DNA from: Halostagnicola kamekurae
Lineage (GTDB): Archaea; Halobacteriota; Halobacteria; Halobacteriales; Natrialbaceae
DNA: 64,000 bases
Direction of reading: 5' to 3'
Assembly (NCBI RefSeq): GCF_900116205.1
Contig: NZ_FOZS01000002.1
Span: 930,001-994,000, forward strand
The notes beneath the pieces are model-generated. The model saw only the letters and a list, made by a program, of their open reading frames with translations, did not search any database and was not told the DNA's origin. The position numbers were made by a program, and so were the translations under genes. How positions within the stretch are numbered: the stretch's first letter is position 1; the number at the start of each line of letters is the position of its first letter. Positions 14,350 to 39,894 of the stretch are shown here, in pieces.

Positions 14350-15630
14350 ATGGATATCGACCTCGAACCGCTTCGGTCCGCGCTCGCGGCCGAGGGTATC
14401 GACGGCTACCTCATCGACGCCGACGGATCGGACTCCGACCAGCGGTACGTCTCCGATTTCACTGCCCCGGACCCCTACCAGACGCTGGTTACGACCGCGC
14501 CGACCGGCCAGTCGAGCGGATCGGCCGGTCCGTCCGAGCCGACTGGTTCGTCCGAATCAGCAGAGTCGCCCGGATCGGACGAGTTCGGCGGGCGTCGCGG
14601 CGTCCATCTCCTAGTCTCCGGCCTCGAGTACGGGCGAGCGCGCACGGACGCGACCGTCGACTCGATCGCTCGACGCGCCGACTTCGACTATCGCGACCGC
14701 GTCGCGGAATACGGCCCCCAGGAGGGAACCGTCCGGACGATCGCGGCGTTTCTCGAGTCACACGACGTCGAGTCGGTGGCCGTTCCCCCGAGCTTCCCGA
14801 CGGGGACCGCGGACGGACTTCGGGAACGGGGGATTTCGGTGACGGTCGAATCCCAGAGGATCGTCGAAACGGAGATCCGAGCGCGCAAATCCGGGTGGGA
14901 GGTCGAACAGATTCAGTCGACCCAGCGTGCGAACGAGCGGGCGATGGCCGTCGCCGAGGAGTTGATCGCGACCGCGGACGTCGAGGACGGCGTTCTCGTG
15001 TACGACGGCGACCCGCTGACGAGCGAGCGCGTCACGACTGAGATCGAAATCGAACTGCTTCGCAACGGCTGTGCGCTCGACGAGACGATCGTCGCCTGCG
15101 GGGCCGACGGCGCGGACCCCCACGACCGCGGCAGCGGCCCACTCGAGGCGGACGAACTGATCGTGATCGACATCTTCCCGCGGGACAAGGAGACTGGCTA
15201 CTTCGGCGATATGACCCGCACGTTCCTGCGCGGCGTCCCGAGCGAGGAACAACGCCGGCGATACGACGTGACCCAGCGCGCTTACGAGGCGGCCCTCGAG
15301 GCCGTCGAGGCGGGCGTAACGGGAGCGGCGGTCCACGACGTGGCCTGCGACGTGATCGAAGACGCCGGCTACGAAACCCTGCGGAGCGATCCGACGACGG
15401 AAACGGGCTACATTCACAACACGGGCCACGGCGTCGGCCTCGACATCCACGAACAGCCCACGGTGTCGCCGTCCGGCGGGGAACTCGAGCCCGGCCACGT
15501 CATCAGCATCGAGCCCGGCATCTACGATCCGGCCGTCGGCGGCGTCCGAATCGAGGATCTGGTCGTCGTCACCGAGGACGGACACAGGAATTTCAACGAG
15601 TACGGCGTTCGCCTCGAGCCGAGGGCGTAG
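14350..15630 (+). CDS. M24 family metallopeptidase (Xaa-Pro peptidase-like)
   Basis: 426 residues from MDIDLEPLRSAL. Residues about 1-200 form a creatinase N-terminal domain; the C-terminal pita-bread domain holds the five metal ligands: Asp in IVIDIFPRD, Asp in FGDMTRTF, His in HNTGHGVGLDIHE, Glu in SIEPGIYD and Glu in VRIEDLVV. It probably removes an N-terminal residue before proline. There is a low-complexity Ser/Gly/Glu insert at about residues 55-80 (SGSAGPSEPTGSSESAESPG), typical of halophile loops. An upstream in-frame ATG at 14233 would add 39 residues overlapping the divergent promoter and was not used. Confidence 0.9.
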   Translation: MDIDLEPLRSALAAEGIDGYLIDADGSDSDQRYVSDFTAPDPYQTLVTTAPTGQSSGSAGPSEPTGSSESAESPGSDEFGGRRGVHLLVSGLEYGRARTDATVDSIARRADFDYRDRVAEYGPQEGTVRTIAAFLESHDVESVAVPPSFPTGTADGLRERGISVTVESQRIVETEIRARKSGWEVEQIQSTQRANERAMAVAEELIATADVEDGVLVYDGDPLTSERVTTEIEIELLRNGCALDETIVACGADGADPHDRGSGPLEADELIVIDIFPRDKETGYFGDMTRTFLRGVPSEEQRRRYDVTQRAYEAALEAVEAGVTGAAVHDVACDVIEDAGYETLRSDPTTETGYIHNTGHGVGLDIHEQPTVSPSGGELEPGHVISIEPGIYDPAVGGVRIEDLVVVTEDGHRNFNEYGVRLEPRA

Positions 15631-34919: not shown

Positions 34920-36464
34920 TCAGAGTGGGATGTTGCCGTGTTTCTTGTCCGGCTTGTCCTCGCGTTTGGTCTCGAGCATCTCGAGGTCGGCGATCAGGCG
35001 CGGGCGGGTTTCGGTCGGGAGGATGACGTCGTCGAGGAAGCCCTTGTCCGTCGCCGTGTAGGGGTTCGCGAACTCCTCGCGGTACTCCTCGATGAGTTCG
35101 TCCCGGAGTTCGTCCGGGTTCTCCGCCTCCTCGAGTTCCTCGCGATAGAGGATGTTGACCGCGCCCTGCGGTCCCATCACCGCGATTTCCGCGGTCGGCC
35201 AGGCGTAGTTGACGTCTGCGCCGAGGTTCTTCGAGGCCATCACGCAGTAGGCTCCGCCGTAAGCTTTGCGCGTGATAACCGTCAGCAGCGGCACGGTCGC
35301 TTCGGAGTACGCGTAGAGCAACTTCGCACCGTGGCGGATGATCCCGCGATGTTCCTGATCGGTTCCGGGCATGTAGCCGGGCACGTCGACGAAGGTGACG
35401 ATTGGAATGTTAAATGAATCACAGAAGCGGACGAACCGCGAGCCCTTCATCGACGCGTCGACGGTGAGCGTCCCCGCGTTGACCCGCGGCTGGTTCGCGA
35501 CGATGCCGACGGATCGGCCGTCGAGGCGGCCGAAGCCGACGACGATGTTCTGCGAGAAGTTGTCCGCGATCTCGAAGAACGAACCCTCGTCGACCACCGA
35601 ATCGATCACGTTGGTCATGTCGTAGGGTTTCTGCGGGCTCGAGGGGACGATGTCCTCGAGCGCGTCGTCCCGCCGGTCCGGGTCGTCCCAGGGCTCGACC
35701 CGGGGGGGATCCTCGACATTGTTCTGCGGGAGATACGAGAGCAGTCGCTTGATCTTATCTAGAGCCTGCTCTTCGCTTTCGCAGGCGAACTCGGCGACGC
35801 CGGTTTTGTTGGCGTGGGTGACCGCGCCCCCGAGTTCTTCGTGGGTCACGTCTTCACCGGTGACGGTCTTGGTGACGCCGGGGCCGGTGATGTACATGTG
35901 ACTCGTGTCCTTGACCATGAAGATGAAGTCCGTGATCGACGGGGAGTACACCGCACCACCCGCACACGGTCCCATGATGCCCGAGATCTGTGGGACGACG
36001 CCGCTGGCTTCCTGATTCCGGCGGAAGATTTCGGTGAAGCCAGCGAGGCTCTTGACCCCCTCCTGAATGCGCGCGCCGGCCGAATCGTTGAGGCCGACGA
36101 TGGGCGCGCCGACTTCCATCGCCATGTCCATCACCTTGCAGATCTTCTCGGCGAACACCTCGCCGAGCGAGCCGCCAAAGACGGTGAAGTCGTGGGCGAA
36201 GACGAACACCGTCCGCCCGTCGACCTCGCCGTAGCCGGTGACGACGCCGTCGCCGGGGATCTTCTTCTCCTCCATCCCGAACTCGCTCGTCTGGTGGGTT
36301 CGGAGCTGATCGAACTCGGTGAAGGTATCCTCGTCGAGGAAGTAATCGATCCGCTCGCGCGCGGTCATCTTTCCTTTCTCGTGTTGTCTTTCGATTCGAT
36401 CCTCGCCGCCGCCTTTCAACGCCTCCGTTCGAAACTCCTCCAACTCCGCGATACGGTCCTCCAT
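34920..36464 (-). CDS. pccB: Acyl-CoA carboxylase carboxyltransferase subunit
   Basis: 514 residues from [12 protein letters not shown]; an upstream ATG at 36536 would add 24 atypical residues. Two crotonase-like halves are visible: [20 protein letters not shown] and [13 protein letters not shown] in the first, [20 protein letters not shown] and [20 protein letters not shown] in the second. It transfers the carboxyl group from biotin to propionyl- or acetyl-CoA. It is the first gene of the pccB-pccX-pccA operon; substrate preference cannot be fixed by sequence. Confidence 0.94.
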
Positions 36465-36623
36465 CGTCACGGCGACCACCTGCTCCGAGTCATAGCAGAC
36501 AGTCGTGTAACCACTGGGAAAAAGATTTCCGTCCATTTTTCAGGCAAAATCCCTCGAGTTGACATTGCACCAATACATCATGTCTAGTAAGTTATTTGTG
36601 GTGCTGGGTTTGATATCCCGTGC

Positions 36624-38034
36624 ATGGTAGAACGAGAAACATGGGCAACGAGAACAGGGTTCATACTAGCGGCGGTGGGAAGCGCCGTCGGACTAGGGAA
36701 CGTCTGGCGCTTCCCCTACCAGGTCGGCGAATTCGGGGGCGCGGCGTTCCTCGTCGTCTACCTCGCGTTGATCGCGCTGGTCGGGTTCCCAGTGTTGATG
36801 GTCGAGTTTACAGTCGGTCGATACACCGACCGAAATCCGGTCGGCGCACTCAAACAGATCGGACAGGGACCGGCCAAACGGATCGGATGGGTGTTCGTCA
36901 CCGCCGGATTCGTCATTCTGTCGTACTACAGCGTCGTCGCCGGGTGGGTCCTGCAGTACACGGCGTACGGATTGCAGGGTAACTTCGCTACAGACGGCGC
37001 AGCGCAGTTCGGAGCCACCACGGGTGGCGCGGTATCGGTTCTCACACACGCGATTTTCATGGCCGCCGTCATCGCCGTCGTCGGGCTCGGTATCCGGCAG
37101 GGTATCGAACTCGCCGTCAAATTGATGGTCCCCGCGATCATCGTGTTGACGGTCGGTCTCGCAGTTTACGCGTTTACGCTTCCCGGCGCTGGGGACGCGT
37201 ACGCGTACTATCTCTCGCCCGATCTCGGTACCATCGCGACGAACTTGACGGACATCCTTCCTGCAGCCGCCGGTCAGGCCTTCTTCACGCTCTCACTGGG
37301 GATGGGCGTAATGATCACGTACGCGTCTTATCTCGGAGAGGATCGCAACCTCGCCAAGGACGGCCTCATCATCGTCGCGCTGGATACGGCGATCGCGTTT
37401 ACCATCGGATTGGTCGCGTTCCCGATCCTCTTCTCTGGCGGCGTTGGCGTTTCTGAGATCACAGAAGTCGGTGCCGGTGCTGGTTTCATCTTCATCTCGC
37501 TCTCACAGGCGTTCGCTAACCTCCCGCTCGGTGGCGTCCTCGGCGCGGTCTTCTTCGCCACGGTCGCCATCGCAGCGCTCTCGAGCGCGATCAGCATCCT
37601 CGAGGTCGTCACCTCGTACCTGATCGACGAACACGGCGTCGATCAGGTACGAGGTCGTCACCTCGTACCTGATCGACGAACACGGCGTCGATCGCGGCCC
37701 CGCGACCGCCATCGTCGGAACCGCTATCTTCCTCGTCGGCGTTCCCGTGGCGTACGACGGGAGCCTGTCGTGGCTCACGGTCTACGACCAACTCGCGAAC
37801 TACGTCCTGCTCGTCCTCGGTGCGCTGTTGCTCTCGGTCTACGTCGGCTGGGTCAAAACCGACATGGGACTCGAGGAACTCGGAAAGGGAGTCAAAGACC
37901 TCGGCGCGTGGGGGATCACCTGGATCTGGGTCCTTCGGATTCCGGTCATCATCGTATTGGTCGTCGTCCTCACGCTAAACGGAATAGAAGCATACACCGA
38001 AATCAGCGGTGTTCTCGGCGGATTCCTCGGCTGA
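36624..38034 (+). pseudogene. Sodium:neurotransmitter symporter family protein, broken by a 49-base duplication
   Basis: The 5' part encodes an NSS transporter with the signature GSAVGLGNVWRFPY and nine or so membrane segments. At 37601-37693 a 44-base sequence is present twice (37601-37644 and 37650-37693, period 49), which shifts the frame by one. Removing one 49-base period gives a normal 453-residue protein whose last part (GVGWVKTD-like and LEELGKGVKD region, stop near 38034) has the expected final membrane segments. In the present sequence translation continues in a wrong frame to 38096. It would have imported amino acids or related solutes with sodium. Confidence 0.85.
37601..37693. 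repeat. 49-base period duplication with an inverted junction
   Basis: Two identical 44-base copies are separated by five bases (AGGTA). The sequence at 37641-37655 is the reverse complement of both 37611-37625 and 37660-37674, so the middle forms a hairpin with a 4-base loop (CGTC). The extra bases are not a simple copy of flanking DNA; they match the complement of upstream bases, as expected from a fold-back template switch at GATCGACG and CGTCGATC. Confidence 0.85.
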
Positions 38035-38055
38035 CCACTGGAACGTTTTCACGCC

Positions 38056-38766
38056 TCAGGCCTCGCCGTAGACCGGGACAGCAGCGCCGCTCGTGACCGA
38101 CGCACCGTCGCTACAGAGAAACGCCATCACGTCCGCGATCTCGAGCGGGTCGACCCACGAGTCGTGATCCGAATCGGGCATCATCTCGCGGTTCATCGGC
38201 GTGTCGATCACGCTCGGCATGACGCAGTTCGCCCGGACAACGCCACGATTCTCCTCGGCCAGCGTCTCGGTGAGGATTCGGAGGCCGGCTTTTGTGATCC
38301 GGTAGGGGCCGTCGCCCTCGCCGCCCTCGAGACTCGAGCGCGCGCTCACGCTGACGATCGATCCCTCGCTGTCCTGTAGGTGCGGAAGGGCGTGTTTCGA
38401 CGCCAGAAACGCCGTTTTCAGGTTGATGTTCATCAGTGCGTCGAACTCCTCGAGATCCGTCTCCGCTACGTGCTGGCCGCCCATCCACGTGCCGGCGATG
38501 TTGAGCAGGTGATCGACCCGCCCGTGGTCGTCGACGATATCCTCGAACAGCTCGGCGACCTCGTCCTCGTCAGTCAGATCCACCTCGTAGAACTGGACGG
38601 CGTCGTCCGGCTCGAGGAGGCTGTCGTCCGCGTCCGGTTCGACGACGTCGACGGCGCAGACGGTCGCGCCCGCGTCTCGAAACCGTTCGACCGCGGCGCT
38701 GCCGAGCGCGCCGCTCGCGCCGGTGACCACCGCGACCGTCTCCGAGAAATCGTACGTGACAGACAT
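38056..38766 (-). CDS. Short-chain dehydrogenase/reductase
   Basis: 236 residues from MSVTYDFSETV. Nucleotide-binding TGASGALG near residue 15, NIAG about 80 and the catalytic YRITK (YxxxK) with an upstream Ser in VSARSS are all present. The Asp at the end of the second strand (VDVVEPDAD) favours NAD over NADP. Substrate unknown. It faces the broken symporter and lies about 120 bases from the divergently arranged quinone reductase gene, which is on the same strand. Confidence 0.88.
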   Translation of the reverse strand: MSVTYDFSETVAVVTGASGALGSAAVERFRDAGATVCAVDVVEPDADDSLLEPDDAVQFYEVDLTDEDEVAELFEDIVDDHGRVDHLLNIAGTWMGGQHVAETDLEEFDALMNINLKTAFLASKHALPHLQDSEGSIVSVSARSSLEGGEGDGPYRITKAGLRILTETLAEENRGVVRANCVMPSVIDTPMNREMMPDSDHDSWVDPLEIADVMAFLCSDGASVTSGAAVPVYGEA

Positions 38767-38885
38767 GCACACTCCTGCCACCCGCAGGTGCAAAAGTTCC
38801 CACCCGGATCTCGAGCGACGACGACTCGCTCGAGAGCCAGATCCCGAGCGAGCAGTCCCAACACGAGAGATGCGTTCGACGGGAG

Positions 38886-39842
38886 CTACGGCGTGACGAC
38901 CAGTTTCCCGAAGAAGCTCTCGGAGAGTACGGCCTCGTGTGCCTCTGGAACCTCCGACAGGTCGTACGTTCGGTCGATCTCCGGCGAGAGCTCGCCGCTC
39001 GAGAGCAACGTGGCGACGCGGCGGAGCACCGCGGCGAGATCCGACGTGTTGAACATGCTGATCAGGTGGATCCGCAGTTCCTTCGAGCGCGCCGCGGGGA
39101 CGTTCGAGAAGCCGGCCTCGGGAACCGTGTTACCGATGCCGACGACTCGAGTCCCCTGCGTCGCGACGTTCGCGTCGAACTGGAGGTAGTCGTCGAGTCG
39201 GTGATCGAGGATCACGTCGGGAGCGCCCGCGGTGATCACCGCGTCCTCGAGATCCTCGCGCGCGTAGTCCAGTACGACATCGGCCCCGAGGGACTCGAGT
39301 TTCTCGTGGTACTCCGGCGCGGCCGTCGTCGTCACCTCGGCCCCGGTTGCGGCCGCGATCTGCACTGCAGCGTGACCCACCCCGCCGCTGCCGCCGTGGA
39401 CGAGACACCGCTCCGCTGGCTCGAGTTCGGCGTGATCGATCAGCGACCGCCAAGCGGTCACCGCGGGAACGCCGAGGGCCGCGCCGGTCTCGAGCGATAC
39501 ACCGTCGGGCAGCGTCGCGATCCGATCGGTCGGCGACGCGGCGTACTCCGCACAGGTTCCCGGGATGTCCTTCCCGAGTCCGGTGCCGAACACCCGGTCG
39601 CCCGGCTCGAACGCGGTTACCTCGTCGCCGACGGCTTCGACGGTCCCGGCGAAATCCGATCCGGGGATCCACGGCAGTTCCGCGGGCGCGTAGGACCCCT
39701 CGCGAAAGTAGGTGTCGACGGGATTGATCCCCGCCGCGCCGACCTCGACCAGCACTTCGTCTTCGTCGGGTTCGGGCGTTGGGATTTCCTCGAGTTCCAG
39801 TACGTCCGCGTCGCCGTGTTCGTGGTATCGAACGGCTCTCAT
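38886..39842 (-). CDS. Zinc-independent medium-chain reductase, quinone oxidoreductase-like
   Basis: 318 residues from MRAVRYHEHGDADVLEL. GroES-like N-terminal part with GAAGINPVDTYFREGSYAP, then VHGGSGGVGHAAVQIAAATG (the NADPH motif). The catalytic zinc ligands of alcohol dehydrogenases are lacking, as in the QOR class. It probably reduces quinones or enals with NADPH. Start chosen at the family-typical MRAVRYH; the frame extends 42 codons upstream without support. Confidence 0.88.
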   Translation of the reverse strand: MRAVRYHEHGDADVLELEEIPTPEPDEDEVLVEVGAAGINPVDTYFREGSYAPAELPWIPGSDFAGTVEAVGDEVTAFEPGDRVFGTGLGKDIPGTCAEYAASPTDRIATLPDGVSLETGAALGVPAVTAWRSLIDHAELEPAERCLVHGGSGGVGHAAVQIAAATGAEVTTTAAPEYHEKLESLGADVVLDYAREDLEDAVITAGAPDVILDHRLDDYLQFDANVATQGTRVVGIGNTVPEAGFSNVPAARSKELRIHLISMFNTSDLAAVLRRVATLLSSGELSPEIDRTYDLSEVPEAHEAVLSESFFGKLVVTP

Positions 39843-39894
39843 ACCCGCCTGTAGGACGGCCCGCGATATAGGAGCACGTGATCGACCGCGAGTC

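Follow-up and report, generated by a model that had tools for sequence, protein, structure and literature searches.

The locus described here raises the question of how an SNF/NSS (sodium:neurotransmitter-symporter-family) gene, at positions 36624-38034 of the window (the whole 64,000-nucleotide stretch of DNA that was analysed), came to carry a 49-base extra period and to lose its frame. Our answer is that the gene was probably inactivated by a single replication accident, in which fold-back self-copying at two small hairpins inserted the 49 bases. The preliminary description of this DNA had already noted the extra period and its two identical 44-base copies, as well as five intervening bases that it read as the complement of those just upstream of GATCGACG. 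All of this was recovered:

37601-37644, plus strand: first 44-nt copy, the original sequence, which aligns without gaps to Halostagnicola sp. A56 and further relatives
37645-37649, plus strand: AGGTA filler, matching on sequence comparison the reverse complement of TACCT (37617-37621)
37650-37693, plus strand: second 44-nt copy, identical to the first; 49 nt are missing from the relatives at this point

The 49 nt are thus the spacing between the two copies, and TACCT directly adjoins GATCGACG (37622-37629) on its upstream side.

The consequences for the protein were read from two frames:

36624-38096, plus strand: symporter open reading frame as sequenced, 490 amino acids, with a PF00209 match up to residue 340
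37694-38034, plus strand: former C-terminal coding frame, now out of register with the start, with a weak PF00209 C-terminal match and alignment to A56 and the congener G018

The match of the open reading frame to PF00209 is strong (E 3e-54; 184.9 bits vs a cut-off of 27), and in frame it ends at residue 340, profile position 381 out of 524, short of a full-length core with its C-terminal helices. Residues 341-490 (150 residues) form an out-of-frame tail that contains 33% Arg and no hydrophobic segment; those found past residue 340 in relatives are gone. The encoded protein has 490 residues vs 449 in strain A56. Because the match stops at residue 340, the tail is Arg-rich and the hydrophobic segments have disappeared, the gene is probably non-functional after the frameshift. 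Contig 4 holds a paralog with 42% identity, an open frame of 477 amino acids and a PF00209 match reaching into its C-terminal part; judged by its sequence, it is intact but distant. A signal of relaxed selection after the break was looked for as well: downstream of the junction, five amino-acid changes fall on the window branch vs five on the A56 branch. Since C-terminal changes are equally frequent in A56, in which the gene is intact, nothing can be read from them on continued selection.

To which state the 49 bases belong was settled by comparing close relatives, as had been proposed in the preliminary description. Strain A56, the closest named relative at the locus (flanks 95.3% identical), has no such insertion, and neither has G018, which is syntenic across about 19 kb. 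Among the 37 matches listed (A56 appears twice; identity down to about 67%), three alignments stop short of the junction, and none of the relatives alignable through it has the insertion. AGGTA was likewise not found at the junction point in the relatives compared (A56, G018 and others alignable there). As the relatives all lack the 49 bases, these alignments establish that the insertion is derived and that the ancestral state is an uninterrupted gene.

Two hairpins at the locus belong to this ancestral state, as indicated by folding and by the relatives:

37601-37616, plus strand: seed hairpin 1, CGAGGT-CGTC-ACCTCG, with a 6-bp stem (5 bp in A56)
37622-37644, plus strand: seed hairpin 2, GATCGACG-AACACGG-CGTCGATC, with an 8-bp stem

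Both are present in A56, the second with the same 8 bp and the first as GAGGT-CGTC-ACCTC (5 bp); hairpin 1 is mostly missing from more distant relatives. The additional pair of hairpin 1 in the window is due to position 37601, which is C there (Leu codon CTC) and G in A56 and most relatives. This C, which fold-back copying of ACCTCG would give, may belong to the same switch event or to one before it.

The insertion also stands out among other differences between these genomes. Over 19 kb, the window and G018 differ by 70 indels, of which this one is by far the largest (the next has 16 nt), and none of the other indels of at least 5 nt in this comparison showed a repeat signature. The indel census against A56 was limited to 3.4 kb because the flanks differ: window positions 36464-39890 are the sole 3.4-kb block that aligns well to A56 contig G019 C11 (124 kb compared; 120 kb of the contig examined), unlike G018, whose synteny with the window extends roughly from 26 to 45 kb of the latter. 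The edge of this block in A56 may represent a rearrangement or transfer boundary. Directly downstream of the junction, seven differences are clustered in 17 bases (37695-37711 compared with L005:4023-4039). G018 mostly agrees with the window there, and the cluster probably arose in A56; its CTTCTC..GGGACC resembles some Natrinema sequences.

The age of the insertion is bounded only by these comparisons, as later than the split from A56 and earlier than sampling. The identity of the two copies had been taken to mean that the event was either recent or an artefact. With a divergence from A56 of about 5% here, we estimate that even an event of the maximum possible age would leave only about 2 differences between the copies, so that their identity is a weak sign of recency. 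In polyploid haloarchaea, gene conversion between chromosome copies could also remove differences between repeats.

The product of the event contains two new inverted repeats, both identified in a stem census:

37611-37655, unstranded: perfect 19-bp inverted repeat with a 7-nt loop
37637-37678 (37637-37655 / 37660-37678), unstranded: perfect 19-bp inverted repeat with the 4-nt loop CGTC

The two stems overlap, as 37637-37655 pairs with 37660-37678 and equally with 37611-37629 in the first copy. The preliminary description had given a 15-base inverted repeat around CGTC; the loop was correct, while the stem is longer and has a second one beside it. The census (perfect stems of at least 10 bp, loops of 3-20) covered 322 kb of the 4.1-Mb genome, i.e. 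the window and 13 other stretches. The only stems longer than 13 bp that it found were these two, and the next longest had 13 bp. DNA folding of the 107-nt region gave a z of -6.8 vs dinucleotide shuffles. The inverted repeat has thus become more perfect, from stems of 8 and 6 bp to two of 19 bp.

To reconstruct the event, we searched exhaustively for two-switch paths (stems of 4 bp or more) leading from the 49-base-free sequence to the observed one. The derived sequence was reproduced exactly by two equivalent families of solutions, one per strand, with a return homology of up to 6 nt for the 8-bp stem and up to 8 nt for the 6-bp stem. In the four-point notation (PMC7954356), the order of the switches on the ancestor is 4-3-2-1. 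The path put forward in the preliminary description (a stop at CGTCGATC, pairing with GATCGACG, copying of AGGTACGAGGT and return through CGAGGT) yields the derived sequence exactly. A mirror path on the opposite strand, which it had left out, fits equally well (6-bp stem, 4-nt loop, 8 shared bases).

In the proposed mechanism, the growing strand would halt during copying where a small hairpin ends and then pair with itself. On the plus strand, the nascent end CGTCGATC would pair with GATCGACG (8 bp, 7-base loop), copy AGGTA plus up to six bases, and return before or within CGAGGT. On the minus strand, ACCTCG would pair with CGAGGT (6 bp, 4-base loop), copy TACCT plus up to eight bases, and return within GATCGACG. 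The self-templated stretch, made in the reverse direction, would comprise 5-13 bases (AGGTA and the shared bases). The strand would then return to its ordinary template upstream of the point of departure, annealing at the second hairpin, and the same 44 bases would be copied anew. The outcome would be a 49-base tandem period that includes a short inverted insert, together with a +1 frameshift and the pair of 19-bp inverted repeats. We infer that all this took place in the cell during replication, on one strand or the other. The path agrees with template-switch models already in the literature, of the quasipalindrome and of the four-point kind (PMC7202029, PMC7954356). Counted against it is the return upstream, which requires a reopened duplex and is less simple than ordinary quasipalindrome correction (PMC7954356).

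An identical 49-nt period would also result from a plain tandem duplication, by slippage or by unequal crossing-over between sister strands, together with a five-base filler that was either untemplated or unrelated. Other perfect tandem duplications are found in this genome, e.g. of a 35-nt unit in L125, so a process of this kind operates there. It would however leave AGGTA and the inverted repeats at both ends as a coincidence. We quantified the latter with 1.5 million random 44-nt duplications carrying random 5-nt fillers, a null model that tests the filler and the seeds and takes the duplication itself as given. In 6 of them (about 4 per million) the forward end had an 8-bp stem that templated the filler, and in 3 (about 2 per million) each end had a stem of 4 bp or more. 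With the hairpins given, the probability of AGGTA by chance is about 6e-4, from base frequencies. Furthermore, the copies do not abut, as they would after simple strand slippage, and the five bases between them match the fold-back template. We therefore consider a plain duplication very improbable. The L125 case (15501-15570; G000 C1) is a perfect head-to-tail doubling of a 35-base unit with no filler, directly upstream of a UspA-like gene; this genome apparently underwent a further recent tandem duplication there.

The complete junction occurs once in the genome and is missing from 292 other genomes of the order, and therefore was not imported from a known copy elsewhere. Outside the locus, only matches with 1-2 mismatches to CGTCGATCAGGTACGAGGT-like sequences were found, and import from elsewhere in the genome or the order was rejected.

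More weight has to be given to a sequencing or assembly artefact, in which chimeric fold-back reads formed at the native hairpins reached the consensus. Chimeras that arise at inverted repeats during library preparation are documented (PMC10908179), the native hairpins are exactly such chimera-prone sites, and the event is present in one assembly only, and the compared genomes come from outside the species, points that also count against the fold-back event itself. The reported library chimeras are, on the other hand, low-frequency calls rather than a consensus (PMC10908179). The k-mers (k of at least 10) that span the switch points are absent from both strands of the parent sequence, with 25 novel 21-mers. 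The assembler would therefore need supporting reads and cannot have created the junction itself; a De Bruijn graph artefact was rejected for k of at least 10 on account of these k-mers. In other respects the assembly is of good quality (4.1 Mb in 16 contigs, 99.94% complete), and the limit of 13 bp on all other stems in the 322 kb gives no indication of a general fold-back problem. An artefact, one of the two options in the preliminary description, is accordingly reduced to an unlikely explanation.

The structure could also be functional, if the 19-bp hairpin signals recoding or if the 44-bp repeat acts as a reversible on/off switch. The hairpin is strong, precise excision could occur between perfect 44-bp direct repeats, and the out-of-frame C-terminus still resembles that of the relatives. 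Yet none of the relatives has the 49-base structure, which is thus not conserved, and amino-acid changes in the C-terminus are just as frequent in the intact A56 gene; we regard a functional role as extremely improbable. When the sequence ahead of the hairpin was inspected, no slippery heptamer was seen. Programmed frameshifting was rejected for want of a visible slippery site and of conservation. Only slightly less remote is a version in which the twin-hairpin hotspot repeatedly gives rise to the duplication and precise excision between the 44-bp repeats removes it again, so that the symporter would phase-vary within a polyploid population.

The fold-back event was thus retained. The suggestion in the preliminary description that this is a quasi-palindrome-templated mutation in an archaeal gene is supported by the relatives and by the exact reconstruction of the path. 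The insertion is a clean, well-formed new example, in an ordinary gene, of a known class, that of quasipalindrome-associated, short-range template switching. It makes a two-switch fold-back event legible in an archaeal chromosome, where the ancestral form, the two seeds and the product are all at hand. It supports the expectation that this class of error is universal and leaves existing views unchanged; the twin-hairpin locus offers a natural test site. In searches of an open-access library and in passages of two papers on haloarchaeal mutation (PMC2816208, PMC9997560), we found no report of an earlier archaeal fold-back event, a thin basis for claiming priority.

Template-switch mutations associated with quasipalindromes are known from E. 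coli thyA and lacZ QP reporters, yeast CYC1 and T4 rIIB (PMC7202029). As in those cases, an imperfect inverted repeat was present beforehand, the nascent strand would have served as template and the repeat in the product is more perfect; the change is derived, and the filler is the reverse complement of a neighbouring stretch, joined on at the repeat. Unlike the classical event, in which one arm is corrected locally, the upstream return here also duplicates 44 bases. In this respect the insertion resembles the four-point class in which point 4 precedes point 1, which appears as one large insertion with a direct repeat, contains a reverse-complement segment of a few bases and requires the new duplex to reopen (PMC7954356). 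It differs from the great-ape cases of that study in being archaeal and in having obvious inverted-repeat seeds at both switch points. Among haloarchaeal genes, the short direct-repeat indel hotspots of Halobacterium salinarum pyrE2 likewise point to replication misalignment at short repeats (PMC2816208). In the accessible part of that report, the pyrE2 events are deletions between direct repeats and no inverted self-templated segment is described, unlike the junction analysed here.
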